Of a stretch of DNA of 64,000 nt, positions 8,302 through 50,344 are shown in pieces. Below the pieces are notes generated by a model that saw nothing but the letters and a program-made list of their open reading frames with translations, made no database searches and had not been told where the DNA came from. A program made the translations under genes and the position numbers. Source of the stretch: Thiobacillus sp. (GTDB lineage: Bacteria; Pseudomonadota; Gammaproteobacteria; Burkholderiales; Thiobacillaceae); assembly GCA_019459055.1 (NCBI GenBank), contig JAIBEI010000047.1, positions 1-64,000 on the forward strand. The letters are read 5' to 3'. Each line of letters opens with the position of its first letter. Positions within the stretch are counted from its first letter, which is position 1.

Positions 8302-14216
<5,915 letters not shown>

Positions 14217-14224
14217 CCCACGGC

Positions 14225-14256
14225 GGGCGCGAGGCGGTTTAGCCGCCATCGCGCCC
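14225..14256 (+). terminator. GC-rich hairpin after gltD
   Basis: GGGCGCG (14225-14231) pairs with CGCGCCC (14250-14256), enclosing a second stem GGCGG/CCGCC. There is no T run, so it may be a factor-dependent pause or mRNA 3' stabiliser rather than a classical intrinsic terminator. Confidence 0.45.
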
Positions 14257-14293
14257 CCACACGGGGTACGCTAAGACATTGCCACCCACCCCC

Positions 14294-15727
14294 ATGCTTT
14301 CCGGACTTTATTACCCCCGTTCCTTCACCATCCTGGTCATCGTCGCCATGGGTGTGCTGATCGTGCCGCTGGCGAGCGGCCTGATCAACGCGGTGCACGT
14401 GCTGCAGGGCGTCGCCGACACCCAGCGCCAGTTCACCCGCAACAGCCTCGCCGTCACGCGCGACGTGCGGCAGATCTCCGAATCGGTGAGCCAGTTGCAG
14501 CGCACTGCCGGGCAGTACCACTTGCTGCAGGACGCCGAATTCGCGCCCGCCCTGCGGACCCGCTACGACGAGCTGCAAACCCTGCTGGCACAACTCGACG
14601 GCGAACTCGCCGATGCGCCGGCACGCGCCACGCTGGCCGCGCTCGAGACACGCAGCCGCACGCTATACCGCCTGCTGCAACCCGGAGAATTTCTCGACAG
14701 CGCGCGCTTCAATGCGCTCGAGCCTGCGTTCGACGCGCTGCATGTCAATACGCGCGCTCTGCTCGCCGAGACCGACGCCGCGGTGCAAAGCGAATTGCAG
14801 GCGCTGGAAGAGACCGTGCAAGCCACCCGCCAGCGGCTGATCGTGCTGGCGCTGGCACTGATTCCGCTGACGCTGCTTTTGGCTGCGGTGTTTTCCTGGA
14901 TGATCAACCGCCCGATCAAGCAGCTCAAGGCCTCGATCCAGCAGCTCGGCCAGGCCGATCTGCGACCGCTGCGGGCGATCAGCGGGCCACAGGACATCGT
15001 CGAGCTGGGGCGTGAAATCGACTGGCTGCGCCAGCGTCTGCAGGCGCTGGAGGACCAGAAGCTGCGCTTTTTGCGCCACGTGTCGCACGAACTGAAAACA
15101 CCGCTGGCGTCTCTGCGCGAAGGCGTCGCACTGCTGAACGACGAGCTGGCAGGCAGCCTCAACGCGCGCCAGCGCAGCATCGTCACTATCATGGACAGCG
15201 CCAGCCGAGACCTACAAAAACGCATTGAAGACCTGATCCGCTACAGCGGTATGATGCGCGACGCCACCCTGCGGCCCACCGGCGAGCATGCGCTGGCGGA
15301 CGTGCTCGCCGGCGTGCTGGCGCGGCAACGGCTGGCTCTCGACGCGCGCGGCTTTCAGGTCGAGGCGCAGCTGAATGCCCCCATCGTGCACTGCGATCGC
15401 AGCCAGCTGGAAACCGTTCTGGACAACCTGCTGTCCAATGCGATCAAATTCAGTCCCGAGGGGGGGCGCATCCTGGTGAAGAGCGAGCCGCTCGACAACG
15501 CAGTCGCGCTGTGGGTGTGCGACCAAGGCGAAGGCATACCCGAAGCCGAGCGCAGTCGCGTCTTCGAGCCGTTTTTCCAGGGCGCGCGCCAGCCCGCCAG
15601 CACGGTCAAGGGCAGCGGACTGGGCCTGTCGATCGTGCGCGAATCGATGCTGGCTGCGGGCGGTGGCGTTGAGGCGGTCGATTGTCCGCCGTGGTCGACC
15701 TGTTTTCGTTTAACCTGGCCTGTTTAA
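14294..15727 (+). CDS. glrK: Sensor histidine kinase GlrK/QseE
   Basis: 477 aa inner-membrane kinase. A first membrane segment (about residues 8-30), a periplasmic helical region rich in Q/R/L, a second segment near residues 185-205 and a HAMP-like linker are followed by the H-box H-E-L-K-T-P with His265, an N-box (N-L-L-S-N-A-I-K-F), G1 (D-Q-G-E-G-I-P) and G2 (G-S-G-L-G-L-S). The family senses envelope state and phosphorylates GlrR. The ATG at 14294 is taken; an in-frame TTG at 14279 is possible. Gene order glrK-qseG-glrR matches enterobacteria and supports the name. Confidence 0.88.
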   Translation: MLSGLYYPRSFTILVIVAMGVLIVPLASGLINAVHVLQGVADTQRQFTRNSLAVTRDVRQISESVSQLQRTAGQYHLLQDAEFAPALRTRYDELQTLLAQLDGELADAPARATLAALETRSRTLYRLLQPGEFLDSARFNALEPAFDALHVNTRALLAETDAAVQSELQALEETVQATRQRLIVLALALIPLTLLLAAVFSWMINRPIKQLKASIQQLGQADLRPLRAISGPQDIVELGREIDWLRQRLQALEDQKLRFLRHVSHELKTPLASLREGVALLNDELAGSLNARQRSIVTIMDSASRDLQKRIEDLIRYSGMMRDATLRPTGEHALADVLAGVLARQRLALDARGFQVEAQLNAPIVHCDRSQLETVLDNLLSNAIKFSPEGGRILVKSEPLDNAVALWVCDQGEGIPEAERSRVFEPFFQGARQPASTVKGSGLGLSIVRESMLAAGGGVEAVDCPPWSTCFRLTWPV

Positions 15728-15735
15728 ATGCCGCA

Positions 15736-16224
15736 ATGACGTTCAAATCCACCTTTCTTGCCGGGCTGTTGCTGACGCTGGGCGCCTGTGCCGCCGTGTC
15801 CGAGCTCCCAACAACAGCGGCCATCCCTGCGACAACCACCGCCCAGCCAACCAGACTGAACGCGACAGCACTGCTGAGCGAGTTGACGCGGGTGGCATCG
15901 CTGTCGCCCGAACAGCGACGCCATGAACTGGCTGGGCTGGAGGGCGAGCGCCTCGACGACGCCCGGCGTTTTCAGTTGGCCGCCCTGCTGGAGCGCGAGG
16001 ACAGCGTGGAAGCGCTCGAACGCAGCCTGAAAACGCTGGGTTCGATCACCGACCTGCATCCCCGCGCCCAACCGTTGACCGAACTGATGAGAAAGTCGCT
16101 CAAGGCGCGTATCGAGCTCAAGCAGCAGACCGCGCGCACGCAGGAATTGCAGGACAAGCTCGACCAGATCAAGGCGCTGGAAAAATCGCTGCAACAGCGC
16201 AACATCCCCGACAAGACACCATGA
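15736..16224 (+). CDS. qseG: QseG-like outer-membrane lipoprotein
   Basis: 162 aa. It starts with a lipoprotein signal: a lysine, a hydrophobic core and the lipobox L-T-L-G-A-C with the lipidated Cys near residue 18. The mature part is helical, with predicted coiled coil at the C-terminus (L-K-Q-Q-T-A-R-T-Q-E-L-Q-D-K-L-D). In enterobacteria QseG is the middle gene between the kinase and regulator and controls kinase activity. Sequence similarity is weak by eye, so the name rests on position, size and lipobox. I placed the start at 15736 rather than an upstream in-frame ATG because the signal peptide then begins at Met1. The stop overlaps glrR (ATGA). Confidence 0.75.
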   Translation: MTFKSTFLAGLLLTLGACAAVSELPTTAAIPATTTAQPTRLNATALLSELTRVASLSPEQRRHELAGLEGERLDDARRFQLAALLEREDSVEALERSLKTLGSITDLHPRAQPLTELMRKSLKARIELKQQTARTQELQDKLDQIKALEKSLQQRNIPDKTP

Positions 16225-17570
16225 AAAAGCCCTGCATTCTAGTGGTCGACGATGACGCGTCGCTGCGCGAGTTGATCACGCTGCGACTGGAAGCCAATGG
16301 CTTCCGGGTCGAAGCGGTCGACAGCGGCGAAGCCGCGCTCACACAGTTGGCGCTGGCGCGCCCCGAAGCCGTGCTGACCGACATGCAGATGGGTGGCATG
16401 GACGGCATGGCGCTGTTTCGCGCCATCCATGCGCGCGACCCGGCGTTGCCGGTGATCGTGCTGACTGCGCACGGCACCATTCCGGACGCGGTGGCCGCCA
16501 CCCAGCAGGGGCTGTTCGGCTACCTGACCAAGCCCTATGACGCCGCCACCCTGATCAGTCTGCTGAAACGCGCCACCCGCCTTACGGGCAGCAGTACCGA
16601 AGCCAACAGCGACAGCTGGCGCAGCGAGATCATCACCGCCAGCCCGGCCATGGACGTGCTGCTGGCCGAAGCCCGGCTGGCCGCGCAAAGCGATGCATCG
16701 GTCTTGATCCAGGGGGAGTCGGGCACCGGCAAGGAACTGCTGGCACGCGCCATTCATCGCGCCAGCCCGCGTCACGGTAGGCCCTTCGTCGCGATCAACT
16801 GTGGCGCGATTCCGGCTGAACTGCTCGAATCGGAACTGTTCGGCCATGTGAAGGGCGCCTTCACCGGCGCGGCGCGCGACCACCTCGGCCTGTTCCTGAG
16901 CGCCGAGGGCGGCACCGTGCTGCTTGACGAGATCGGCGACATGCCCGCGCAGCTGCAGGTCAAGCTGCTGCGCGTGCTGCAGGAAGGCGAGGTGCGGCCG
17001 GTCGGCGCGACCGAAACACGGCCCGTCGACGTACGCATTCTGTCGGCCACCCACCGCAATCTGGAGGAGGCGATCGCCAGCGCCGAATTCCGCGAAGACC
17101 TGTATTACCGCCTCAACGTCGTCACCCTGACGCTGCCGCCCTTACGCGAGCGGCGCGAGGACATTCCACTGCTGGCGCGGCATTTCCTTACGGTGCTGAC
17201 GGAAAAATACCGCCGCCGCATCCATGGCTTTGCGCCAGACGCGCTCGACATGCTGACGGCGGCCGACTGGCCGGGCAACATCCGCCAGTTGCACAACGTG
17301 CTGGAGCAATGCATCGCGCTGTGCACCACCTCGACCATCCCGGCCAGCCTGGTGGCGCGCGCCCTGCGCGACAAACCGGCCGAGATCCAGCCTCTGGCCG
17401 AAGCACGCTCGACGTTCGAGCGCGATTATCTGATTTCGCTGCTGAAGCTCACCCGCGGCCAGGTCAGCGAAGTGGCGCGGCTGGCCGGACGCAACCGCAC
17501 CGAGGTATACCGGCTGCTGCAACGCCATGGCCTCACCCCCGCGCTGTTCAAGGACCGCGACGACGCTTGA
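16221..17570 (+). CDS. glrR: Sigma-54-dependent response regulator GlrR/QseF
   Basis: 449 aa. The receiver domain has the phospho-acceptor Asp54 (L-T-D-M-Q-M). The AAA+ activator domain has an intact Walker A G-E-S-G-T-G-K-E (165-172), the sigma-54-contacting loop G-A-F-T-G-A (212-217) and a Walker B (L-L-D-E-I-G-D). The C-terminal HTH contains G-R-N-R-T-E-V-Y-R-L-L. Known homologues bind TGTC-N10-GACA and drive sigma-54 promoters. Exactly such sites and promoters lie immediately downstream in this window. It overlaps qseG by 4 bases. Confidence 0.93.
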   Translation: MKKPCILVVDDDASLRELITLRLEANGFRVEAVDSGEAALTQLALARPEAVLTDMQMGGMDGMALFRAIHARDPALPVIVLTAHGTIPDAVAATQQGLFGYLTKPYDAATLISLLKRATRLTGSSTEANSDSWRSEIITASPAMDVLLAEARLAAQSDASVLIQGESGTGKELLARAIHRASPRHGRPFVAINCGAIPAELLESELFGHVKGAFTGAARDHLGLFLSAEGGTVLLDEIGDMPAQLQVKLLRVLQEGEVRPVGATETRPVDVRILSATHRNLEEAIASAEFREDLYYRLNVVTLTLPPLRERREDIPLLARHFLTVLTEKYRRRIHGFAPDALDMLTAADWPGNIRQLHNVLEQCIALCTTSTIPASLVARALRDKPAEIQPLAEARSTFERDYLISLLKLTRGQVSEVARLAGRNRTEVYRLLQRHGLTPALFKDRDDA

Positions 17571-17571
17571 G

Positions 17572-17589
17572 TGTCAGGCATCTGCGACG
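17572..17589. promoter_or_regulatory. GlrR-type operator (TGTC-N10-GACG)
   Basis: TGTC at 17572-17575, ten bases, then GACG at 17586-17589: seven of eight positions of the known GlrR consensus TGTC-N10-GACA. It lies about 73 bases upstream of the -24 element at 17663, a normal distance for an enhancer-type activator site. Confidence 0.6.
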
Positions 17590-17662
17590 CCTTCCCTGGC
17601 GCGGAGGCGGCCGATTCCCGTACCGTCGCCCCATCCATTTGATTCAAAATACTTTTCTTGAT

Positions 17663-17678
17663 TGGCACGGCCTCTGCT
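17663..17678 (+). promoter_or_regulatory. Sigma-54 promoter upstream of the DUF1328 gene
   Basis: TGGCACGGCCTCTGCT gives GG at 17664-17665 and GC at 17676-17677 with exactly 10 bases between, the canonical -24/-12 spacing. The -24 half is a perfect TGGCACG; the -12 half is CTGCT instead of TTGCT. The downstream ATG is 53 bases away and a GlrR-type box lies upstream. Confidence 0.8.
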
Positions 17679-17730
17679 TTAGGGGGATACCGCCTTTTGG
17701 CGCGCTTATCAACCCCAAGAGGAGGACACC

Positions 17731-17898
17731 ATGTTTGAATGGGCCGTTACGTTTCTGACTATTGCAATCATCGCCGGAATTTTCGGTTTTGCCGGGCTGA
17801 CGGGCACCGCTGCCTGGATCGCCAAAGCGCTGTTCGTCGTCGGTCTGGTGGTGTTTCTCGTGCTGTTGGTCTCGGGCCGCCGCCCGCCAGCCCTTTAA
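17731..17898 (+). CDS. DUF1328 small membrane protein (YtjA family)
   Basis: 55 aa, two hydrophobic segments (residues about 5-24 and 28-48) joined by a small polar turn G-L-T-G-T-A. It matches the DUF1328/YtjA family of tiny inner-membrane proteins linked to envelope stress. A strong ribosome-binding site (GAGGAGG) precedes the ATG. It lies behind a sigma-54 promoter and a GlrR-type box, so it is a likely GlrR target. An intrinsic terminator follows. Confidence 0.85.
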   Translation: MFEWAVTFLTIAIIAGIFGFAGLTGTAAWIAKALFVVGLVVFLVLLVSGRRPPAL

Positions 17899-17915
17899 AA
17901 CGCTCGTTGCACAGG

Positions 17916-17941
17916 AAAGGGGAGCTTGCCTCCCCTTTTTG
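17916..17941 (+). terminator. Intrinsic terminator after the DUF1328 gene
   Basis: A 9-bp perfect stem AAAGGGGAG / CTCCCCTTT with loop CTTGC is followed by further T residues. It isolates the DUF1328 transcript from the downstream EF-hand unit. Confidence 0.85.
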
Positions 17942-17960
17942 ATTGCCTGTTTTCCGTGGC

Positions 17961-17978
17961 TGTCGCCGATGGCCGACA
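17961..17978. promoter_or_regulatory. GlrR-type operator (perfect TGTC-N10-GACA)
   Basis: TGTCGCCGATGGCCGACA: both half sites match the GlrR consensus fully and the whole is nearly palindromic. It lies about 165 bases upstream of the -24 element at 18126. Confidence 0.75.
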
Positions 17979-18024
17979 AAATAATTCAATAAGAACAACC
18001 GCCTAACAAATCCCATCCGGATCC

Positions 18025-18042
18025 GTCGCCGACAGGCGACAT
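18025..18042. promoter_or_regulatory. GlrR-type operator (CGTC-N10-GACA)
   Basis: CGTCGCCGACAGGCGACA: seven of eight consensus positions and 14 of 18 bases identical to the site at 17961. Centre-to-centre distance to that site is 64 bases. Together they form a tandem pair upstream of the sigma-54 promoter at 18126. Confidence 0.7.
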
Positions 18043-18125
18043 ATCGACCGCCCATGCGGACGCAACGCTGCGCCCCGAACCGTAAAAATCATCCACCAAC
18101 TTGTTTTTATTAGAAAAAATAGAGC

Positions 18126-18141
18126 TGGCACGGTCGTCGCT
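18126..18141 (+). promoter_or_regulatory. Sigma-54 promoter upstream of the first EF-hand gene
   Basis: TGGCACGGTCGTCGCT: GG at 18127-18128, ten bases, GC at 18139-18140. The -24 half is perfect TGGCACG; the -12 half is TCGCT rather than TTGCT. It is 58 bases upstream of the ATG at 18199 and is preceded by two GlrR-type boxes and an AT-rich stretch (18100-18122) suited to DNA bending. Confidence 0.8.
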
Positions 18142-18198
18142 TTACCCCTCCTTGAGTGCGTCTGCATTCGTAATGACTCAACCATTAAGGAGCGAAAC

Positions 18199-18468
18199 AT
18201 GAAATTCATTCACCCCAACTTTCTGACCCTCACGCTTGCCGGTCTACTGAGCGCCGCCTCGGCCTCTGTCTTGGCCCAATCCACGCCCGGAACCTCCTTT
18301 TCCCCCGCCCCGAGCGCACCCAGCTTCCAAAGCGTCGACAGCAATAACGACGGCAAAATCAGCCTGGAGGAATACAAGGCTCTGGGCGGAAACGAACAGA
18401 TCTTCGCCAAAATCGACGCCAACCAGGACAAGTACCTGAGCAAGGACGAATTCGCCAAGCAAGGCTAG
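18199..18468 (+). CDS. Secreted EF-hand protein 1
   Basis: 89 aa. A Sec signal peptide (about residues 1-26, cleavage after A-S-V-L-A-Q or nearby) precedes a proline-rich linker and two calcium-binding loops: D-S-N-N-D-G-K-I-S-L-E-E and D-A-N-Q-D-K-Y-L-S-K-D-E, each with acidic residues at loop positions 1, 3, 5 and 12. The protein is predicted periplasmic and to bind Ca2+. It shares length, signal peptide and loops with the next gene, so the two are tandem paralogues. Transcription is probably from the sigma-54 promoter at 18126 under GlrR control. Confidence 0.85.
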   Translation: MKFIHPNFLTLTLAGLLSAASASVLAQSTPGTSFSPAPSAPSFQSVDSNNDGKISLEEYKALGGNEQIFAKIDANQDKYLSKDEFAKQG

Positions 18469-18540
18469 GCAAGTCCAGCACCAAACCCTGCTGACCTGGG
18501 TATTTATTTTGTTGAACCATTACATTGATCGGAGCTAGAC

Positions 18541-18813
18541 ATGAAATCCATTCACCCCCGCGTACTGACCCTCACACTCGCCGGGCTGCTGGGCGCCTCG
18601 GCGTCTGCCTTGGCCCAACCCATGCCCGAGGCCGCCCCCGCCACCGGTGCACCCAGCTTCCAGAGCATGGACAGCAATGGCGACGGCAAAATCAGCTTGA
18701 CGGAATTCAAGGCTAAGGGCGGAGATGATCGTATCTTCACCAAACTCGACACCGACCAGGACAAGGGTCTGAGCCAGGATGAGTTCGCCAAGCTGGGCAA
18801 GCCGAGCGCCTAA
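18541..18813 (+). CDS. Secreted EF-hand protein 2 (paralogue)
   Basis: 90 aa. It has the same design as the gene 72 bases upstream: signal peptide ending near A-S-A-L-A-Q, short Pro/Ala linker, then EF loops D-S-N-G-D-G-K-I-S-L-T-E and D-T-D-Q-D-K-G-L-S-Q-D-E. Sequence identity to the first copy is high, indicating a tandem duplication. CGGAGC precedes the ATG. No separate promoter is evident in the 72-base gap, and no terminator separates them, so read-through from the sigma-54 promoter is likely. Confidence 0.85.
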   Translation: MKSIHPRVLTLTLAGLLGASASALAQPMPEAAPATGAPSFQSMDSNGDGKISLTEFKAKGGDDRIFTKLDTDQDKGLSQDEFAKLGKPSA

Positions 18814-18948
18814 CATACGGCGACTGCGCTGGGCAGTCGGGAGCGGGACAGTGGTCCGCAACGGCTGCTGATCAAACGCGAACCACCGACTCCCAGCCAG
18901 CCGGCGATGAATCCTTCACAACCGGCACATGAATCCAGGAGAACTGAT

Positions 18949-19308
18949 ATGAGCAAAACCATGCCACACCTCAATGACGAGCACATGCAGCTGTATGAAT
19001 GGAGCGGGACCGGAATCGGGGGGACATCCATCCCGGCCAAGTCGAAACGCACCCATCCCTGGCGAGCCTCCTACGCTGTGCTGGGCGTACTGACCAGCCT
19101 GCTGGTCCTGAACGGCTGCGACAACCCGGACTCCGCAGAGCAGGCGAGCGAACAGATCGAGCGGAGAATGAAGGATCGGCCGCTATATGACGACGCCGCC
19201 AACCAGCCCATGCCTGGGGCGGAGGCGGGCGCACCGGCTGCAGACGAAGCGCCCGCGCAGCCGGGCAAAGCGATCGAGCCACCCGGAGAAGGCCAACCAA
19301 CGCAGTGA
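18949..19308 (+). CDS. Membrane-anchored hypothetical protein with internal lipobox-like motif
   Basis: 119 aa; no family recognised. About 42 polar residues precede a hydrophobic segment (residues about 42-57) that ends in L-V-L-N-G-C, a lipobox-like sequence. The remainder is acidic and Pro/Ala-rich, low in structure. The start at 18949 has AGGAGA seven bases upstream; an in-frame ATG at 18907 lacks one. The long N-terminal stretch before the hydrophobic core is unusual for a lipoprotein, so it could instead be a single-span membrane protein. It follows the EF-hand genes in the same direction and is closed by a strong terminator. Confidence 0.6.
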   Translation: MSKTMPHLNDEHMQLYEWSGTGIGGTSIPAKSKRTHPWRASYAVLGVLTSLLVLNGCDNPDSAEQASEQIERRMKDRPLYDDAANQPMPGAEAGAPAADEAPAQPGKAIEPPGEGQPTQ

Positions 19309-19325
19309 CCGGCCGTGTCCATAAA

Positions 19326-19356
19326 AAAGGCCGGGCGCATCATGCGCCCGGCCTTT
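19326..19356. terminator. Bidirectional intrinsic terminator
   Basis: A perfect 14-bp stem (AAAGGCCGGGCGCA with TGCGCCCGGCCTTT) and a three-base loop lie between convergent genes. A-rich and T-rich flanks allow termination from both sides. Confidence 0.9.
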
Positions 19357-19376
19357 CACGTTCATACCATCCGCGG

Positions 19377-20525
19377 TCAGAACGTATGGCTGTACATCAG
19401 CTGCCAGTTGATCTGGCTGTGGTCAATGCTCATGCCGCTACCCGCCGTCACGCTCACCTCCGGCACATAGCTTAGGCCAAAGTTAAGCGCGGATTGCTTG
19501 CTGAAGGCATAGCCGAATCCCGCCGTGTAGTGGTCTTCCATGATCGCCGGCCACAGATAATTGACGAACGCGTCCGGGATCGGATTCTCGCCATGGTTGT
19601 AGCCGACGCGGCCGGTGACGGCGTCGCTGAACCGGTAGGCGAGGCCCAGCGACAGCACGATCTGGTCGTCCCAGTCCTGCTGGAACGGCGCAACGACCAT
19701 GTCATTCTGGTAAATGGTCACCGTATTCATGCTGCTGCCCCACATCACGTCCTTGACGTCGGCCGCGACCATCAGCCGCTCGCTCGCCTGCCAGGCAAGG
19801 CCGAGGCCGAGCATGGCCGGCATGTCGAAGCCGGTCACCTTATAGTCGTCGTCCTTGAGGTCGGGCAGGTTGGCGGCGGTCTGGTAGACGCCGCCGACGG
19901 TCAGGGCATCGTTGAGCCTGTAGGTGAAGCCGAGCTTGGCCGCCACGCTGTAGCCCTTGGCGGCGCCGGTGAAGTCGCTGTCGTCCTTGAAATCGATCTC
20001 CTTGCCCGGATTGAAGGGGTTGAGATCGGCGACCAGATCCATCCCCGCCCACACCACGTCGACGCTGCCGCCGATGTTGAAGCGCGGGTTGACGCTGTAG
20101 GCGAGCGGGAAGATCACCCGGCCCACGCCTACCTGCGCCATGTCGCCATTGGCGTATTCGGTGCCCATTCCGCCCTGGCCGTAGATCCCCGCGCCATAGA
20201 CCAGATTGCCCTGCTTCTTCACGTAGCCGATGGCCGGCATGTAGAAGGCGTCGGCCTCGGATTTGCCCATCCCCATCGATGTTTCCAGGTCCGGGCCGAC
20301 GAAACCCACCATCACGTCGAGCCGGCTGCCGTCCGCCATCAGGCCGAGCGTGGCCGGGTTGTTCGCCAACGCGGCGGTGCCGTTGTCGTAGGCCATGGCG
20401 GCCCCGCCCATGCCTGCGGCGATCGGGCCGTAGCCCTCCATGACCATGCCGTTGGTGGCCATGACCAGGCTGGGAGCAACCAGTCCCACCGCGGCAAGCG
20501 TGGCCGCAAGTTTGTTTCGTTGCAT
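19377..20525 (-). CDS. OmpP1/FadL-family outer-membrane transport protein
   Basis: 382 aa. A Sec signal peptide (Met to about residue 23, ending V-M-A-T) is followed by the FadL hatch-like N-terminus N-G-x-x-x-E-G-Y-G and the A-L-A-N-N-P-A-T motif, then alternating beta-strand sequence, ending in an aromatic Phe as outer-membrane barrels do. The family takes up hydrophobic compounds such as fatty acids or aromatics. I chose the ATG at 20525, which has AGGAGAC upstream; a longer open frame to 20687 lacks a signal peptide at its start. The gene is divergent from the 133-aa gene at 20794. Confidence 0.9.
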   Translation of the reverse strand: MQRNKLAATLAAVGLVAPSLVMATNGMVMEGYGPIAAGMGGAAMAYDNGTAALANNPATLGLMADGSRLDVMVGFVGPDLETSMGMGKSEADAFYMPAIGYVKKQGNLVYGAGIYGQGGMGTEYANGDMAQVGVGRVIFPLAYSVNPRFNIGGSVDVVWAGMDLVADLNPFNPGKEIDFKDDSDFTGAAKGYSVAAKLGFTYRLNDALTVGGVYQTAANLPDLKDDDYKVTGFDMPAMLGLGLAWQASERLMVAADVKDVMWGSSMNTVTIYQNDMVVAPFQQDWDDQIVLSLGLAYRFSDAVTGRVGYNHGENPIPDAFVNYLWPAIMEDHYTAGFGYAFSKQSALNFGLSYVPEVSVTAGSGMSIDHSQINWQLMYSHTF

Positions 20526-20793
20526 CGGGGGTCTCCTGAGATGCGGATTAATGATTAGAAAAGGCGAAGATTCTAACCCACTAACGCGGGCGCTCCCCAA
20601 ACTTGAGCCATGGCTTTTTCGTTGCAGCACCCGTGGCGGAGGCATGGCCGCGTCCCGCCCGCAGCCAGCGGTAACAAAGCGATACACCTTGTTACCCGCC
20701 CCACACGTGCCGCTTACACCACGCCCCTACTCTGCGGGTGTCCGCTGGCGCAACGATCCGGCGACACCCCACCACTGAAACAGGAGCGACACC
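20526..20793. promoter_or_regulatory. Divergent intergenic region with possible sigma-54 site and operator
   Basis: On the plus strand TGGCTTTTTCGTTGCA (20611-20626) has GG-N10-GC spacing and a perfect TTGCA -12 half, but a weak -24 half (TGGCTT) and no TGTC-N10-GACA box upstream. GGTAACAA / TTGTTACC (20670-20677 with 20689-20696) is an 8-bp inverted repeat that could be an operator. GGGTGTC/GACACCC (20736-20742 with 20763-20769) can form a leader stem-loop ahead of the 20794 gene. Confidence 0.4.
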
Positions 20794-21195
20794 ATGAAAA
20801 GCATTTCGATGAAAAAAGCCTTCGGCGTTCTGGCGCTGGGCGCCTTGGGCCTGATGACCACCGGCGCACAGGCCGCCTGGGACCGTGGCGGCCAGAACCA
20901 CGCGCCGACGTATCAGCAAACCAGGGCGTATAGCCAGCAGATCAACGCACGCCAGGATCGTCAGGTGCAGCGCATCCGCGCTGGCCAGCGCGCGGGCCAT
21001 CTGACCCGATTCGAATTCCGCGAATTGATGCAGGAACAGCACAAAATCCACGCCATGGGACAACGTTTCCGCGAAGATGGTGTGATCGACGCCCGCGAAT
21101 TCAGGCGCCTCGATCACGCGCTGGACAGGGCGGATCGCAATATCCGGGCGGAAAAGCATGACCGCCAGGCCTACGGCCAGAACCCCGGGTATTAG
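20794..21195 (+). CDS. Secreted basic hypothetical protein
   Basis: 133 aa. It has an N-terminal signal peptide (two Met starts, residues 1 and 6; cleavage near G-A-Q-A-A at about residue 27). The mature part is rich in Arg, Gln and His and helical. Residues 90-101 (F-R-E-D-G-V-I-D-A-R-E-F) resemble a degenerate EF-hand-type loop with the spacing of acidic residues partly lost. I do not recognise the family beyond such periplasmic proteins in betaproteobacteria. CAGGAGCG precedes the first ATG. Function unknown. Confidence 0.65.
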   Translation: MKSISMKKAFGVLALGALGLMTTGAQAAWDRGGQNHAPTYQQTRAYSQQINARQDRQVQRIRAGQRAGHLTRFEFRELMQEQHKIHAMGQRFREDGVIDAREFRRLDHALDRADRNIRAEKHDRQAYGQNPGY

Positions 21196-21196
21196 C

Positions 21197-21310
21197 AGCC
21201 TGTCGTGCAGCGGCCGGCCGAAATGGTGCCGCCGATCACCACGCCGATCGCGTCGCGGTTGCCGTAGTCGCGGTCATAGGCCACGCGGCCGGGAGCGCCA
21301 AGCCTGCTAA
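21197..21310 (-). pseudogene. Possible C-terminal remnant of a glycine-zipper protein
   Basis: On the minus strand this gap reads [22 protein letters not shown] then a stop after T-G-C. The glycine-spaced tail looks like the end of a glycine-zipper envelope protein. There is no credible start or signal peptide, since the frame runs back into hemE. It could be a decayed gene or coincidence. Confidence 0.25.
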
Positions 21311-21351
21311 AATGCCGGCTTTGCATCCCGGCCATATTTTGTGGCACAGCC

Positions 21352-22419
21352 ATGTCCGTCCTCGAGAACGATACCTTCCTGCGTGCGCTCGCGCGCCAGC
21401 CCACTGAATACACCCCCCTCTGGCTGATGCGCCAGGCCGGCCGCTACCTGCCGGAATACAACGCCACCCGCGCCCGCGCCGGCGACTTTCTGACCCTGTG
21501 CAAGACGCCCGACCTGGCGACCGAAGTGACGCTGCAGCCGCTGGCGCGCTATCCGCTCGACGCCGCCATCCTGTTTTCCGACATCCTCACCGTGCCCGAC
21601 GCGATGGGCCTGGGCCTGTATTTCTCGCAGGGCGAGGGCCCGCGCTTCGAGCGCCCGTTGCGCGACGAATGGGAAATCCGCGACCTCTCCGCGCCCGACC
21701 CCACCGACAAGCTGGGCTACGTGATGGACGCGGTGCGCTCGATCCGCCGTGCGCTCGACGGCTCGGTGCCGCTGATCGGATTTTCCGGCAGCCCCTACAC
21801 GCTGGCCTGCTACATGGTCGAAGGCGGCGGCTCGGACGACTACCGCCACATCAAGACCATGCTGTACAGCCGCCCCGACCTCTTGCACCGCATCCTGGAA
21901 GTGAACACCCGGGCGGTGATCGACTACCTCAACGCGCAGATCGAGGCCGGCGCGCAGGCGGTGATGATTTTCGACTCCTGGGGCGGCAGCCTTACCCCGC
22001 ACGCATACAAGGAATTCTCGCTCGACTACATGGAACGCATCGTCGCCGCCCTGACCAAGGAGCGCGAAGGCCGCCGCGTCCCCAGCATCATCTTCACCAA
22101 GGGCGGCGGCAACTGGCTGGAATCCATGGCCGGCATCGGCGCCGACGCGGTGGGACTGGACTGGACGGTCGACATCGGCGAGGCGCGCCGCCGGGTGGGC
22201 GACCAGGTTGCGCTGCAGGGCAACCTCGACCCCAGCGCCCTGCACGGCACGCCCGACAGCATCCGCGCCGAAGCGCACCGCATCATCGACAGCTACGGCA
22301 ATCACCCCGGCCATGTGTTCAACCTCGGCCACGGCATTTCGCAGTTCACCGACCCGGACAAGGTCAGCGTTCTGGTCGAGGCGGTGCACAGCCGCAGCCG
22401 CGCCGTGCGCGCGGCATGA
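21352..22419 (+). CDS. hemE: Uroporphyrinogen III decarboxylase
   Basis: 355 aa, normal length. It removes four acetate carboxyls from uroporphyrinogen III to give coproporphyrinogen III in haem synthesis, in the cytosol. Signature sequences are present: [13 protein letters not shown] near residue 23 (substrate-binding Arg), the Asp in [16 protein letters not shown] near 145 and the F-N-L-G-H-G-I near the end. TGCTAAAAT at about 21304-21312 may be an extended -10. A Tim44-like gene follows after 50 bases. Confidence 0.96.
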
Positions 22420-22469
22420 TTCCTGGCCCTGAACGGCCACGCTTTGCTTTTTATTCATCAGGAAACACC

Positions 22470-23294
22470 ATGAAACGTATTTTGATCAGCCTGTTTGCCG
22501 TCTTCATCGGCTTCTCCTTCATGATGCCGGATGCCGAAGCCCGCCGCATGGGCGGCAGCAAATCCTTCGGCATGCAGCGCACCGCGCCGGCCAAGCAGAA
22601 TGTCGCGCCGACGCCGCCGCGCCAGCAGACCGGTGCCGCCCCGCAGAAGCGCTCGTGGATGGGACCGATCGCCGGCCTCGCCGCGGGCTTGGGACTGGCC
22701 GCGCTGTTTTCCCATCTCGGTCTGGGGGAGGAAATGGCCAATTTCATGATGCTGGCACTGCTGGCGATGGCCGCCTTCATGCTGTTCCGCTGGTTTCTGC
22801 GCCGCAATGCGCCGGCCCCGGCCATGCAATACGCCGGCATACCCGCTGCAGGCGTCAACCCTGGCGCCACGGTTGATTTGGCTCCCGCCGCTTTGGGTGG
22901 CGGCGCCGTCGCCAGCCCTTTTCCACCCGGCTTCGATGCCGACGCCTTCACGCGCGAGGCCAAGCTCAACTTCATCCGCCTGCAAGCGGCGTTCGACGCC
23001 GCCAACCTCGACGACCTGCGCGCCTTCACCTCGCCCGAAGTGTTTGCCGAAATCAGCATGCAGCTGGCCGAACGCGGCGACGCCGCCCAGACCACCGACG
23101 TCATGACGCTCGACGCCGAGGTGCAGGAAGCGGTCGACGAGGGCAACCGCCATGTCGTCAGCGTGCGCTTCACCGGCCTGGTGCGCGAGGCCGCCGGCCA
23201 GGACGCCGTACCGCTCGACGAAGTCTGGCACCTCACCAAACCGGCCAGCGGCCAGGGCGGCTGGGGCATCGCCGGCATTCAGCAACAACGCTAG
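22470..23294 (+). CDS. Tim44-like domain membrane protein
   Basis: 274 aa. An N-terminal signal or anchor (residues 2-22) precedes a Pro/Gln-rich linker, then two hydrophobic segments near residues 65-83 and 88-110, and a C-terminal Tim44/TIM44-like domain (about 150-270) beginning F-D-A-D-A-F and ending in the W-H-L-T-K-P pattern. Bacterial members are poorly understood envelope proteins. The start at 22470 has CAGGAAAC upstream. It probably shares a transcript with hemE. Confidence 0.85.
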   Translation: MKRILISLFAVFIGFSFMMPDAEARRMGGSKSFGMQRTAPAKQNVAPTPPRQQTGAAPQKRSWMGPIAGLAAGLGLAALFSHLGLGEEMANFMMLALLAMAAFMLFRWFLRRNAPAPAMQYAGIPAAGVNPGATVDLAPAALGGGAVASPFPPGFDADAFTREAKLNFIRLQAAFDAANLDDLRAFTSPEVFAEISMQLAERGDAAQTTDVMTLDAEVQEAVDEGNRHVVSVRFTGLVREAAGQDAVPLDEVWHLTKPASGQGGWGIAGIQQQR

Positions 23295-23799
23295 CCGGAA
23301 CAAGGCCTTGCGCGCCAACAAGGTGCGCGGAAGGCCGTATTTGCGCCTATAGAAGCATTGACTTATGCACATAAGTCGCGCAACTGAAACTTTTTTGCTC
23401 CAATCTCTTGACAGCCAGGCCATCTTTGTAAGTCGTTGATAGATATCAATTTGCTGGCCTGCCTGCTTTTTGGCCTGTGATGGCGACCCGCGTGAGGACG
23501 GGCGTTTGAGGGCAGTCGACACAAATCGCCCACACAATTATCCACAGCTTGCGTGGACAAGACGGAATAAGGCTTGGCAAACAGACGCTTAGTGAATTTT
23601 TCCCGACCCCCTATCAGAATTTACCCCTATTGAGACGGCCTGGTAATGTTTGAACCCATAAAGTGTTCTTCGCGCCGTCCTGAGTGGGGCAGTTCGTTGA
23701 GCCGCCTCAATAGAACGCTGTTTTCTCGCGCTGTCTCACATAGCCCGAGCAAACCGACCTTCAACATCGCTTCAAGCTTCATCAGGCCGAATCAATAAC
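23295..23799. other. 505-base gap before priA with palindromes and a DnaA-like box
   Basis: No convincing gene. Visible structure: an 18-bp palindrome GACTTATG-CA-CATAAGTC at 23360-23377; TTGACA at 23406 without a good -10; a perfect DnaA-box-like TTATCCACA at 23538-23546, followed by GCGTGGACAAG; and CTATTGAGACGGC (23627-23639) matching inverted GCCGCCTCAATAG (23701-23713) at 12 of 13 positions across 61 bases, which might be ends of a decayed mobile element. A 65-codon minus-strand frame at 23363-23560 has no recognisable domain. Confidence 0.5.
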
Positions 23800-25977
23800 A
23801 TGCCGTCCATCCTTCAGGTCGCACTCGATACGCCGCTGCATCGGCTGTTCGACTATCGCCTGCCGGATGGCCTCGGTGGCCTCGGTGGCCTCGGTGCCGT
23901 GCCGCCGGGCACCTTGCTCGAGGTTCCGTTCGGCCGCACCCGCCAGGTTGGCGTCGTGCTCGGGCCGCAGGCCGACAGCACGGTCCAGACCGACAAGCTG
24001 CGCGATGTGATCCGCGTGCTGGCAGACCGCCCCGCGCTGTCGCCCGAAATTCTCCGCCTGGCGCAGTTCTGCGCCGACTATTACCACTATCCGTTGGGCG
24101 CGATCCTGCTCGCCACGCTGCCGCCGCGGCTAAAAAACGTCACGCCGTTCGTCGCCGAGACACCCTGGCTGGTGGTGACCGAAGCCGGACAGGCAGCCGA
24201 ACCCGTCGCCCGCGCCCGCGCGCAGCGCGCCCTGCTTGACGCGCTGCGGACGGCGCCACAGTCGCGCAGCGTGCTGCGCGCGCAGAAACAAGGCCGCCAC
24301 GCCGCCGCGCTGGTGGCGGCCGGCTGGGCCGCCTGGTCGCGCGTTCCTCCGCCGGCAGCCGACGCGCCGCGGACGGCCGAATCGCCCCCTGCCACCGCCG
24401 AGCAGCAGGCCGCGCTCGAGACGCTGCTGCCCGCGCTCGGCCAGTTTGGCGTGCACCTGATCCACGGCGTCACCGGCAGCGGCAAGACCGAGCTGTACCT
24501 GCGCCTGATCGACGCGGTGCTGGCCAAGGAAAAACAGGCGCTGGTGCTGATTCCCGAAATCGCGCTGACCCCGCAACTGGAACAGCATTTCCGCCGCCGC
24601 TTTCCCGGACGCCGCTTCGCCACCCTGCACAGCGGCCTCGCCGAAAAAGACCGCGCCGAAAACTGGCTCGCCGCCCCCGACTGCGACGTGCTGCTCGGCA
24701 CCCGGCTGTCGGTGTTCGCGCCGCTGCCGCGGCTGGGGCTGATCGTGGTCGACGAGGAGCACGACGCTTCGTTCAAGCAGCAGGACAGCCTGCGCTACTC
24801 GGCGCGCGACGTCGCCATCGCGCGCGGCAAGCAGTGCGGCGTGCCGGTGGTGCTCGGCTCCGCCACGCCCTCGCTGGAAAGCTATGCGCAGGCCACGACC
24901 GGGCGCTACCGGCTGATCGAGCTGCAGCAGCGCGCCATCCGCCAGGCGCGGCTGCCGGCGATCGAACTGGTCGACCTCAAGCACATTCCGCTCGACAACG
25001 GTCTCACCCGTCCCGCCCTGCTGGCGCTGACCGAAACCCTGGCGCGCGGCGAGCAGAGCCTGGTGTTTTTGAACCGCCGCGGCTACGCCCCGGCGCTGTA
25101 CTGCCCAAGCTGCGCCTGGGTTTCGCCCTGCCCGCGCTGCTCGGCGCGGCTGGTGCTGCACCGCACCTCGCATCGACTGAAATGCCACCACTGCGGATTC
25201 GAGGCGCGCATCCCGCCCGCATGCCCGAGCTGCGGCAACCCCGATTTGAAAGCCCTCGGCCAGGGCACGCAGCGGCTGGAGGAAACGCTCGCCGCGTTGC
25301 TGCCCGCCGCGCGCATCCGCCGCATCGACCGCGACACCATGCGTCCGCGCGCCTGGGCCGAACTGGGCGCGGCGGTGCACGGCGGCGAAGTCGACATTTT
25401 GGTCGGCACCCAGATGCTGGCCAAGGGCCACGACTTTCCCAACATGACGCTGGCGCTGATCCTCGACACCGACGGCGCGCTCTACAGCCCGGACTTTCGC
25501 GCCACCGAACGCCTGTTCGCCCAGCTGATGCAGGTGGCCGGGCGCGCCGGGCGCGCCGACAAGCCGGGACGCGTGCTGATCCAGACCGCCTTCCCCGATC
25601 ATCCTTTGTTCCGCTACCTGCAGCGCCACGATTTCGCCGGCTATGCGCGCGCGCTGCTGGCCGAGCGCCGCCAGCTCGACCTGCCGCCGTTCACCCGGCA
25701 GATCCTGCTGCGCGCGGAAGCGCCCACGATGGAAGCGGCGCTGTCCTTCCTGCAGCGCGCCGCAGCGCTCGCGCCGGATACGACCGACGTCAGCGTGTTC
25801 AGCGCGACGCCAGCCCCCATGGCAAGGATCGCCAATCTGGAGCGCGCGCAACTGCTGATCCAGTCCGCCTCAAGACTCGCCCTGCAGGCCTTCGTGCGCG
25901 ACTGGCGACCGCTGCTGGACACCATCAAGCCGCGCGTGGCGCGCTGCTCGCTCGACGTCGACCCGCTGGTGTTTTGA
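23800..25977 (+). CDS. priA: Primosomal replication restart helicase PriA
   Basis: 725 aa. It restarts stalled forks by binding branched DNA, unwinding it and loading the DnaB helicase. An N-terminal 3'-DNA-binding domain is followed by Walker A G-V-T-G-S-G-K-T (223-230), the D-E-E-H box, and an insertion with eight zinc-binding cysteines in four C-x-x-C pairs (C-P-S-C, C-P-R-C, C-H-H-C, C-P-S-C), then the helicase C lobe with G-T-Q-M-L-A-K-G-H-D-F. Near the N-terminus three copies of GGCCTCGGT (about 23869-23895) encode G-L-G-G-L-G-G-L-G, a slippage-type expansion. Confidence 0.97.
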   Translation: MPSILQVALDTPLHRLFDYRLPDGLGGLGGLGAVPPGTLLEVPFGRTRQVGVVLGPQADSTVQTDKLRDVIRVLADRPALSPEILRLAQFCADYYHYPLGAILLATLPPRLKNVTPFVAETPWLVVTEAGQAAEPVARARAQRALLDALRTAPQSRSVLRAQKQGRHAAALVAAGWAAWSRVPPPAADAPRTAESPPATAEQQAALETLLPALGQFGVHLIHGVTGSGKTELYLRLIDAVLAKEKQALVLIPEIALTPQLEQHFRRRFPGRRFATLHSGLAEKDRAENWLAAPDCDVLLGTRLSVFAPLPRLGLIVVDEEHDASFKQQDSLRYSARDVAIARGKQCGVPVVLGSATPSLESYAQATTGRYRLIELQQRAIRQARLPAIELVDLKHIPLDNGLTRPALLALTETLARGEQSLVFLNRRGYAPALYCPSCAWVSPCPRCSARLVLHRTSHRLKCHHCGFEARIPPACPSCGNPDLKALGQGTQRLEETLAALLPAARIRRIDRDTMRPRAWAELGAAVHGGEVDILVGTQMLAKGHDFPNMTLALILDTDGALYSPDFRATERLFAQLMQVAGRAGRADKPGRVLIQTAFPDHPLFRYLQRHDFAGYARALLAERRQLDLPPFTRQILLRAEAPTMEAALSFLQRAAALAPDTTDVSVFSATPAPMARIANLERAQLLIQSASRLALQAFVRDWRPLLDTIKPRVARCSLDVDPLVF

Positions 25978-48886: not shown

Positions 48887-50344
48887 TTACTTTCTCCAGA
48901 ACACCGGGGTCAGCACCACCAGCAGGGTGAAAAACTCCAGCCGCCCGAGCAGCATGGCAAAGCTGCACACCCAGATCTGGAAATCCGTCAAAACGGCATA
49001 GGTGCTGGCGGGGCCGACCTGCCCCAAGCCGGGTCCGGTGTTGTTGACCATGGCCACCACCGCGGTGAACGCGGTAAAAACATCCAGCCCGGACGCAGAG
49101 AGGATGAACGACAGGATGACGATCGACGCGACATAAATGAACAGGAAGGCCAGCACCGCATAGATGATCTTATTGGGCACCGATTGCTGCCCGATCTTGG
49201 TGTGGATTTCCGCGTTGGGGTGGATCAGTTTGATCAGTTCGCGGTAGACCTGTTTGTAGAGTAGCACCGCGCGCAGCATCTTGATGCCGCCGCCGGTGGA
49301 GCCGGAACCGGCAACGAAGCTCGACAAGAACAGCATGAACAACGGGGCGAAATAGGGCCAGACGTTGAAGTCGGTGGTGGAAAACCCGAGCGTGGTGGCA
49401 ATGGCGATGGTGTTGAATGCCGCATAGCGCAGGGCCTCGGAGAAGCCGAAATAAAATCCCTTGTACTGCAGATAGAACGCCAGCCCAAGAACGCTGGCGC
49501 CGAGCACGCCAAAGGTCCAGCGGATTTCCGCGTCGAAGCGGTAGGCCAACAGATTGCGCGTGCGAAACGCCATGAAATGGGTGGAAAAGCTGATGCCGGC
49601 GATCAGCGCGAACACCATGACGATGATTTCCAGCGCGACGGAATCGAAATAGGCCATGCTGGCGTCGTGCGAGGACATGCCGCCCAGGCTCATGACGCTG
49701 AAGGCGTGAACGACGGCATCCACCCAACTCATGCCGCCGATCCACAACGCCAGGATACAAAGCACGGTGAAGATGACGTACACCAGCCACAGCCCCTTGG
49801 CGGTTTCCGCCATGCGCGGAGTGAGCTTGCTGTCCTTCATCGGCGTCGGCGTCTCGGCCTTGAACAGCTGCCGGCCGCCGACCCCCAGCATCGGCAGCAC
49901 CGCCACCACCAGCACGATCACGCCCATGCCGCCGATCCAGTGCATCTGGGTGCGCCAGATGTTGATCGACGGCGGCAGGCTGTCAAGCCCGGACAGCACG
50001 GTGGCGCCGGTGGCGGTCAGGCCCGAGACAGCCTCGAAATAGGCGTCGGTGAAGCTGAGGTCGGGCATGTACGACAGCAGCGGGATGGTGGAAAACAGCG
50101 GCAGGATGGTCCAGATCATCACCACCAGCAGAAAGCCGTCGCGGGTGTGCAGTTCGCGCTTGCCCCTGCGGGAGAAAAGCCACAGCACCACTCCGGACAG
50201 GAAGGTGACGACGATCGCCTCGTCGTAGGCCCGGTGCGCACCATCTTGCAGCCCCAGCGAGATCGCCAGCGGCAGCAAAAATGCGGCCGAATAAAGGATC
50301 AGCACTTTCGACAGGATGTGGACGACAGGCAATATTTGCGACAT
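48887..50344 (-). CDS. trkH: Trk potassium uptake channel, TrkH (copy 1)
   Basis: 485 aa integral membrane protein with the four MPM repeats of the Trk/Ktr/HKT family. Selectivity-loop sequences are visible: T-A-T-G-A-T-V near residue 110, S-L-G-G-M-S-S-H near 220, S-G-S-T-G-G-G-I near 320 and N-T-G-P-G-L near 440. It takes up K+ with TrkA on the cytoplasmic side. It ends an operon ntrY-ntrX-trkA-trkH-trkH read leftward, or its own unit. The second trkH lies 118 bases upstream. Confidence 0.95.
   Translation of the reverse strand: MSQILPVVHILSKVLILYSAAFLLPLAISLGLQDGAHRAYDEAIVVTFLSGVVLWLFSRRGKRELHTRDGFLLVVMIWTILPLFSTIPLLSYMPDLSFTDAYFEAVSGLTATGATVLSGLDSLPPSINIWRTQMHWIGGMGVIVLVVAVLPMLGVGGRQLFKAETPTPMKDSKLTPRMAETAKGLWLVYVIFTVLCILALWIGGMSWVDAVVHAFSVMSLGGMSSHDASMAYFDSVALEIIVMVFALIAGISFSTHFMAFRTRNLLAYRFDAEIRWTFGVLGASVLGLAFYLQYKGFYFGFSEALRYAAFNTIAIATTLGFSTTDFNVWPYFAPLFMLFLSSFVAGSGSTGGGIKMLRAVLLYKQVYRELIKLIHPNAEIHTKIGQQSVPNKIIYAVLAFLFIYVASIVILSFILSASGLDVFTAFTAVVAMVNNTGPGLGQVGPASTYAVLTDFQIWVCSFAMLLGRLEFFTLLVVLTPVFWRK

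Follow-up and report, generated by a model that had tools for sequence, protein, structure and literature searches.

The glrKR locus and its promoter elements

The window, that is, the whole stretch of 64,000 nucleotides of Thiobacillus DNA analysed here, carries between 14279 and 17570 three genes placed like qseE-qseG-qseF (glrK-glrR), followed by genes for a small DUF1328 membrane protein, for two secreted EF-hand proteins and for a further small lipobox-bearing product (Table 1). For the regulator, the best NCBIfam model is GlrR (NF011695, 579 bits), with NtrC next at 436 bits, i.e. 143 bits lower. The curated cut-off of NF011695 (763 bits) is passed by E. coli but reached neither by the window protein nor in any of 300 genomes of the order, and the regulator is an orthologue of the betaproteobacterial branch rather than an equivalog under NCBI's rule. 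Pfam assigns it Response_reg and Sigma54_activat domains, and its HTH region aligns with that of Citrobacter GlrR, to which the protein is 54% identical overall and with which it has the HTH core AGRNRTExYxLL in common; the nearest match with a species name is GlrR of T. thioparus (89% identical). The names of the two other genes rest on synteny, as the best NCBIfam model of the kinase is CreC, far under its cut-off, and the ORF in the qseG position has no support from Pfam, where only two weak and unrelated matches (E up to 0.1) were obtained. The genome contains rpoN.

Behind the DUF1328 gene lies a terminator-like hairpin with a T run, which folds with -15.1 kcal/mol (z -2.2) and is equalled in stability by 6 of 200 shuffled sequences; a terminator scan did not list it. 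Owing to this hairpin, DUF1328 is likely transcribed as a single gene. The small ORF at the end of the locus has no family in Pfam or NCBIfam, is matched at the corresponding place in T. thioparus by an evident relative, and is possibly cotranscribed with the EF-hand genes.

Both GG-N10-GC sigma-54 promoters that a sequence-only reading of the window had placed at 17663 and 18126 were recovered by pattern search, and both lie downstream of the glrR/qseF orthologue. Likewise, all three TGTC-N10-GACA-type boxes it had described are present, except that the third begins at 18024, one base off the position given for it (18025). The box at 17572 precedes the DUF1328 promoter, with 91 bp to its -24 element, whereas the EF-hand promoter is preceded by two boxes 63 bp apart, the second of them 102 bp upstream of its -24 element.

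Table 1. Features of the glrKR locus in the window, and further candidate GlrR-type promoters in the same genome (contigs C4, C42, C26 and C11)
Feature	Position	Strand	Basis and remarks
glrK/qseE-like sensor histidine kinase	14279..15727	+	ORF; Pfam HAMP, HisKA, HATPase_c
Small lipoprotein-like ORF in qseG position	15736..16224	+	Lipobox-like LTLGAC (by eye); between kinase and regulator
glrR/qseF orthologue, sigma-54 enhancer-binding response regulator	16221..17570	+	NCBIfam, Pfam
Degenerate GlrR-type box (UAS), DUF1328 promoter	17572..17589	+	TGTC..GACG, 7/8; 3.9 bits
Sigma-54 -24/-12 element, DUF1328 promoter	17663..17678	+	TGGCACGGCCTCTGC at 17663-17677; pattern search
DUF1328 small membrane protein, 55 aa	17731..17898	+	Pfam PF07043, E 1.1e-12
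Terminator-like hairpin behind DUF1328	17916..17940	+	AAAGGGGAG-CTTGC-CTCCCCTTT and T run; sequence
GlrR-type box 1 (UAS), EF-hand promoter	17961..17978	+	8/8; 20.9 bits
GlrR-type box 2 (UAS), EF-hand promoter	18024..18041	+	CGTC..GACA, 7/8; 19.8 bits
Sigma-54 -24/-12 element, EF-hand promoter	18126..18141	+	TGGCACGGTCGTCGC at 18126-18140; pattern search
Secreted EF-hand protein 1, 89 aa	18199..18468	+	Pfam EF-hand_1, E 9.8e-11; signal-peptide-like N-terminus (by eye)
Secreted EF-hand protein 2, 90 aa	18541..18813	+	Pfam EF-hand_1, E 1.5e-9; signal peptide (by eye)
Small ORF	18949..19308	+	Lipobox-like LVLNGC
Bactofilin candidate target	C4:49608/49686; -24/-12 at 49779 (L009:1609-2500)		Tandem boxes
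Exopolysaccharide-type locus	C42:3350/3438/3529 (L005 / L236:3350-9300)		Two boxes 88 bp apart and -24/-12
C26 promoter	C26 (L007:2400-2800)		Four GlrR-type boxes within 250 bp and sigma-54 element
114-aa protein without family (small secreted protein)	C11:34919/34984		Tandem boxes

Counted singly, the motifs are unremarkable: TGGCACGN6GC occurs twice in the window (2.5 expected), and TGTCN10GACA with at most one mismatch 26 times (16 expected; 2 of 100 shuffles give at least as many). Such counts, being at or slightly over chance, were dropped as evidence. A search of the own genome for a perfect box with TGGCACN6TGC found only the C42 locus and missed the window promoter, so that a weight matrix was used instead, trained on 17 promoters of which none lies in the window (16 from other genomes, one from elsewhere in the own genome). 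Over the 64 kb this matrix ranks the boxes at 17961 (20.9 bits) and 18024 (19.8 bits) first and second, the next best site scoring 11.1 bits. Furthermore, TGTCGCCN4GGCGACA with at most one mismatch occurs at only five places in the 2.93-Mb genome (51 contigs), namely at these two boxes and at C11:34984, C26:24197 and C2:53650, the first two of which stand in tandem arrangements like the window pair; with up to three mismatches, the motif is hardly more frequent (474) than its reversed control (444). Thus, the combination of motifs is far above chance, whereas the single motifs are not.

Association of the promoter type with GlrR

From a scan for regulators, the best 80 of 595 stretches were taken and split at 50% identity, which gave 19 GlrR-type loci (L025-L043) and 61 loci of other NtrC-type regulators (L044-L104, at most 49% identical). 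Boxes paired 58-82 bp apart were found in 15 of the 19 GlrR-type loci, 14 of them with a -24/-12 element behind, versus none of the 61 others. The weight matrix was then applied to 119 GlrR loci, i.e. these 19 and 100 further ones. In 81 of the 119, the 700 bp that follow glrR contain a -24/-12 element with a box, and in 60 of these the boxes are in tandem; counted anywhere in the locus, the combination occurs in 86 of 119 GlrR loci versus 2 of 61 controls, in which tandem boxes were absent (0/61). The 33 remaining GlrR loci have no promoter by these weight-matrix and -24/-12 criteria. Leaving out L025-L043, most of which had served to train the matrix, 69 of 100 loci retain a -24/-12 element and a box within 700 bp downstream of glrR.

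In a survey of 300 genomes of the order, GlrR was called at E up to 1e-140 and found in 119, while a strict tandem-box/sigma-54 pattern was found in 30 and its reversed control in none. The strict pattern occurs in 29 of 119 GlrR-positive versus 1 of 181 GlrR-negative genomes (Fisher p 4.5e-12) and, counted by genus, in 19 of 57 versus 1 of 77 (p 1.6e-7); it is absent from 90 of the 119 GlrR-positive genomes. The own genome is positive through C11; the EF-hand promoter in the window escapes the strict pattern, its box 2 having C as first base. When coordinates were compared by hand, a match was seen to start at most about 350 bp downstream of glrR in 21 of the 30 pattern-positive genomes. Across the 300 genomes, the promoter type tracks GlrR. 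The sole pattern-positive genome without GlrR by this cut-off is G017 (C2:245176-245359, L105), where the match may be due to chance.

Conservation within the genus

GlrR was found in 41 of 56 surveyed genomes of the genus, and 29 same-genus loci were analysed, a box being counted at seven or more of the eight half-site bases. Loss of the boxes and of the -24/-12 elements from syntenic loci of close relatives, named beforehand as speaking against the proposal, was looked for in these 29 loci, and the outcome does not refute the proposal. The EF-hand promoter has its -24/-12 element in all 29 and both boxes in 27, followed by an EF-hand relative in 28; in the 29th the contig ends too early. DUF1328 is present in 20 of the 29, each time with a -24/-12 element ahead of it, and in 17 of these 20 a box follows directly on the glrR stop (absent in L247, L265 and L267). 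Ten of these 17 boxes begin TGTCGGGC, and several are far stronger than that of the window, some reaching 16-18 bits. The other nine loci lack both DUF1328 and its promoter, so that the EF-hand promoter comes first behind glrR.

When the window is aligned with the 20 DUF1328 loci, column conservation is 0.78, 0.80 and 0.85 for the boxes at 17572, 17961 and 18024, and 0.87 and 0.92 for the -24/-12 elements of the DUF1328 and EF-hand promoters, compared with 0.85 for the DUF1328 coding sequence and 0.58-0.66 for the spacers. Within the 17572 box, the half-site columns are conserved to 0.90 and 0.85. In G201, a relative from another genus, the tandem boxes and the two -24/-12 elements are retained, but the 17572 box is absent.

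Promoter layout and IHF sites

Among 69 tandem promoters, the boxes lie 65-67 bp apart in 56 and 63, 68, 77-78 or 96-97 bp apart in the others. The distance from box 2 to the -24 element is 80-84 bp in 27, 91-94 bp in 15, 101-105 bp in 8, 111-114 bp in 14 and elsewhere in 5, thus clustering near 82, 92, 102 and 112 bp with a period of 10.25 bp; with one locus per 80%-identity GlrR cluster (n = 43) the period is 10.2 bp (R 0.72; 99% of the null at 0.45). The box spacings are helically phased. As for the sigma-54 elements, the IHF consensus used is the generally known one, and perfect matches to it occur between the boxes in 20 of the 69 promoters and between box 2 and the -24 element in 23, with means of 0.5 and 0.6, respectively, in base-shuffled spacers. 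In the window, the EF-hand promoter has only sites with two mismatches and the DUF1328 promoter a site with one.

Genes behind the promoter in other lineages

Predicted proteins behind the promoters gave 89 rows in 25 clusters, the first ORF having been chosen automatically, which is error-prone. The largest cluster (31 members) contains a BON domain in 25 and EF-hands in 12, so that at least six members carry both. A cluster of 16 has a glycine-zipper 2TM domain in nine. Furthermore, there are seven glycosyltransferases, which we take to be OpgH/MdoH-like (the member tested, L030, belongs to Pfam glycosyltransferase family 2), two rows of MdoG type (L031 tested), with one or two more by eye, and two of CsbD type, of which the tested L028 is just over the cut-off. 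Seven bactofilin-type rows, divergent from and upstream of glrK, come from six loci, two of them in the same genome (L032 tested). A cluster of four (L170, L196, L206, L208) and one of three (L147, L153, L156) were each tested in one member (L170 and L153), which matched no Pfam family; 17 rows are singletons, several of them doubtful. Four loci without an automatically chosen ORF have, by eye, two glycine-zipper-type genes, one MdoG-like gene and one sRNA-like gene.

The gene behind the promoter thus changes across lineages (BON, EF-hand, glycine-zipper, glucan synthesis, bactofilin, CsbD, DUF1328), and the recognisable products are mainly envelope proteins. As these genes differ among lineages, the proteins by themselves do not confirm the regulator. 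Fusions of EF-hands with BON domains stand behind the promoter in L136:6117-6608 (EF-EF-BON) and L214:1953-2435, linking two of the target families; the EF-hand scores of L214 are under the Pfam cut-offs.

GlmY and the sRNA-like gene of family f23

The best match to GlmY (RF00128) in the own genome scores 12.6 bits against a threshold of 33, with the E. coli control over the cut-off. Across the order, none of 150 genomes has a match at E 0.01, a search in which the filters lose some weak matches and the E. coli control passes, and in positions 10000-24000 of the window no Rfam family matches at its gathering score. It had been suggested that GlrKR acts here on protein genes instead of, or as well as, a glmY RNA; as GlmY was not found in the own genome or in the 150 of the order, "instead of" fits better than "as well as".

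In family f23, a short sRNA-like gene follows the sigma-54 promoter downstream of glrR. Its core, AGAGTGCGCCTTGNGGGG, occurs in 14 of 28 family genomes (control 0/28), and each of the 14 core loci is immediately preceded by GlrR and has a -24/-12 element together with two boxes that score 9.5 bits or more; among the 14 family genomes without the core, at least four (G069, G189, G220, G280) lack GlrR in the order survey. In that survey the core occurs in 4 of 300 genomes, all of f23. The gene comprises a CU-rich stretch, an invariant AGAGTGCGCCTTG core and a terminator-like hairpin, and is found in L272-L285 (core at 1501-1518 of each) and also in L203, L165, L209 and L193; L203, L209 and L165 gave no Rfam match at E 0.5. 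With just five pairs in the fold of the alignment, none of them changed on both sides, support for a structure is weak and none is claimed.

Discussion

The stretch from 17.5 to 18.2 kb would contain the target promoters of the adjoining GlrK-QseG-GlrR (QseEGF) system, a known sensor of envelope stress. In the model that we propose, phosphorylated GlrR would bind the tandem boxes at 17961 and 18024 and, possibly helped by IHF-type DNA bending, would reach sigma-54 RNA polymerase at 18126 and open it for a transcript that encodes the two secreted EF-hand proteins and possibly the small lipoprotein. The second sigma-54 promoter, at 17663, with its one degenerate box, would serve a probably monocistronic gene for the DUF1328 membrane protein. 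We consider this explanation as a whole, i.e. window promoters that are GlrR/sigma-54 targets for an EF-hand transcript and DUF1328 within an envelope regulon of proteins, very probable. Its parts differ in strength. That GlrKR drives the EF-hand promoter, as claimed at the outset, has a high likelihood, judging from conservation, the ranks of its boxes and the association with GlrR. The DUF1328 promoter is a probable but weaker case of a sigma-54 promoter with a GlrR box, and its control by GlrR appears to be the weakest link of the whole reading: the element conserved in 20 of 20 loci and the box in 17 of 20 agree with the original claim, whereas the low score of the window box and its absence from three relatives and G201 do not. 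The elements, their conservation and spacing, the link to GlrR and the lack of a GlmY match are read from sequence; binding, activation, the help of IHF, the signal and the functions of the products are inferred, and a "calcium-linked" output is a weaker proposition, drawn from the presence of EF-hand domains.

Several other explanations were weighed. That the motifs are chance occurrences in a GC-rich genome would suit the single motifs, which lie at or little over chance level, but is contradicted by the way they combine, by their conservation and helical phasing and by their association with GlrR, and may be regarded as practically negligible. Alternatively, another sigma-54 activator (NtrC, PrsR-type or other) could read the boxes, the neighbourhood of glrR being incidental. 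Many NtrC-type candidates per genome appear at first look, and G017 has the pattern without GlrR by the cut-off; yet GlrR is present in 29 of the 30 pattern-positive genomes, a match lies close behind glrR in 21 of the 30, and none of the 61 other NtrC-type loci has the tandem arrangement, which renders this alternative quite improbable. A shade less probable still is that the chief product of the EF-hand promoter is a regulatory RNA, with the ORFs being secondary. The best-known enterobacterial target of GlrR is an sRNA, according to the excerpt of PMC6075780, and f23 has an sRNA-like gene at the corresponding place, but in the window an ORF start with a Shine-Dalgarno-like AAGGAG follows about 60 bp behind the -12 element, EF-hand relatives accompany the promoter in all same-genus loci but the truncated one, and neither GlmY in the genome nor any Rfam family at its gathering score in 10000-24000 was found.

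A real, although minor, possibility is that GlrR targets the EF-hand promoter alone, and that the DUF1328 promoter responds to a different activator or to GlrR acting from the downstream boxes at 17961/18024, some 300 bp away. The 17572 box scores just 3.9 bits and is missing from G201 and from three of the 20 relatives that keep the DUF1328 promoter. Against this, the box stands at the identical place in the 17 others, at 16-18 bits in some, its half-sites are among the well-conserved columns, and DUF1328 and its single-box promoter are absent together from the same nine of 29 loci.

The model has clear parallels in known systems, here cited from excerpts of the sources. In Enterobacteriaceae, QseF/GlrR activates the sigma-54 promoter of glmY (PMC6075780, PMC8745638), assisted in E. 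coli by IHF (PMC6075780). The glmY system and the window have in common the regulator family, an apparent qseEGF gene order, the TGTCN10GACA (TGTN12ACA) boxes and the sigma-54 promoter; they are also alike in IHF help (described for glmY and suggested for window-type promoters by enriched sites) and in the adjacency of the promoter to the regulator genes. Citrobacter (L043) has tandem boxes with a -24/-12 element about 2.4 kb before glrR, which would be the position of glmY. In contrast, the promoters of the window follow glrR and lead into protein genes (DUF1328, EF-hand), with GlmY undetected. E. coli rpoE, likewise activated by QseF through sigma-54 (PMC6075780), resembles the window in being a protein-coding envelope-stress gene, although it encodes a sigma factor and not a small envelope protein. 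A theme of sigma-54 targets that concern the bacterial exterior, with a QseF-like class listed, comes from PMC3162934, whose excerpt agrees with this theme and names no betaproteobacterial GlrR targets. QseE/QseF have been reported from Betaproteobacteria and other groups (PMC12691602, PMC8895600), with qseG between qseE and qseF in Betaproteobacteria (PMC12691602), but in the excerpts these two papers treat signalling or phylogeny and use glmY as sole promoter, with no other targets. GlrR is not mentioned in the excerpt of PMC11722255, and none of the open-access matches listed describes GlrR/QseF targets in Betaproteobacteria in its title or abstract start.

What these excerpts say of GlrKR targets concerns glmY and rpoE of enterobacteria. 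The conserved layout together with the known operator would allow direct GlrKR targets to be read in many Betaproteobacteria. Comprising small periplasmic and membrane proteins, periplasmic-glucan synthesis and bactofilin, these targets point towards a common role in envelope homeostasis, and they suggest that glmY is one local solution. Moreover, the DUF1328, small EF-hand and glycine-zipper families, whose function is obscure, gain a testable candidate regulator. The wider pattern of a conserved switch with exchangeable genes is, in our view, the more interesting result, and we lean moderately towards reading GlrKR (QseEGF) as an old envelope switch of Beta- and Gammaproteobacteria, with a conserved layout next to its own genes, in which a box, an IHF site, a second box, a second IHF site and the sigma-54 element keep a fixed helical phase, with a repeatedly exchanged gene and, in f23, a separate and as yet unlisted sRNA that would parallel glmY. 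Thiobacillus would then, with the same moderate confidence, be one instance of a switch whose exchangeable outputs include the EF-hand/BON fusions. That regulator and promoter type are known while the outputs appear new and exchangeable is largely supported.

Within the own genome, too, GlrR seems to head a regulon of envelope proteins and not of the sRNA GlmY, as similar boxes precede bactofilin, exopolysaccharide, flavocytochrome-c and small secreted protein genes (Table 1). The envelope output first proposed for this locus is largely supported, yet seems broader than DUF1328 and the EF-hand proteins. Since these further targets come from searches rather than a complete scan, their list is a minimum. 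At C42, the promoter is followed by a small ORF, a sugar transferase gene and Wzz/GNVR. At C26, the -24/-12 element faces an ORF that by eye is cytochrome-like, together with a flavocytochrome-c sulfide dehydrogenase-like gene. The bactofilin at C4 is of a target type also seen in Dechloromonas and Propionivibrio, upstream of glrK. The boxes at C26 are apparently a duplicated enhancer, and the sigma-54 element there is one base off the EF-hand element of the window.
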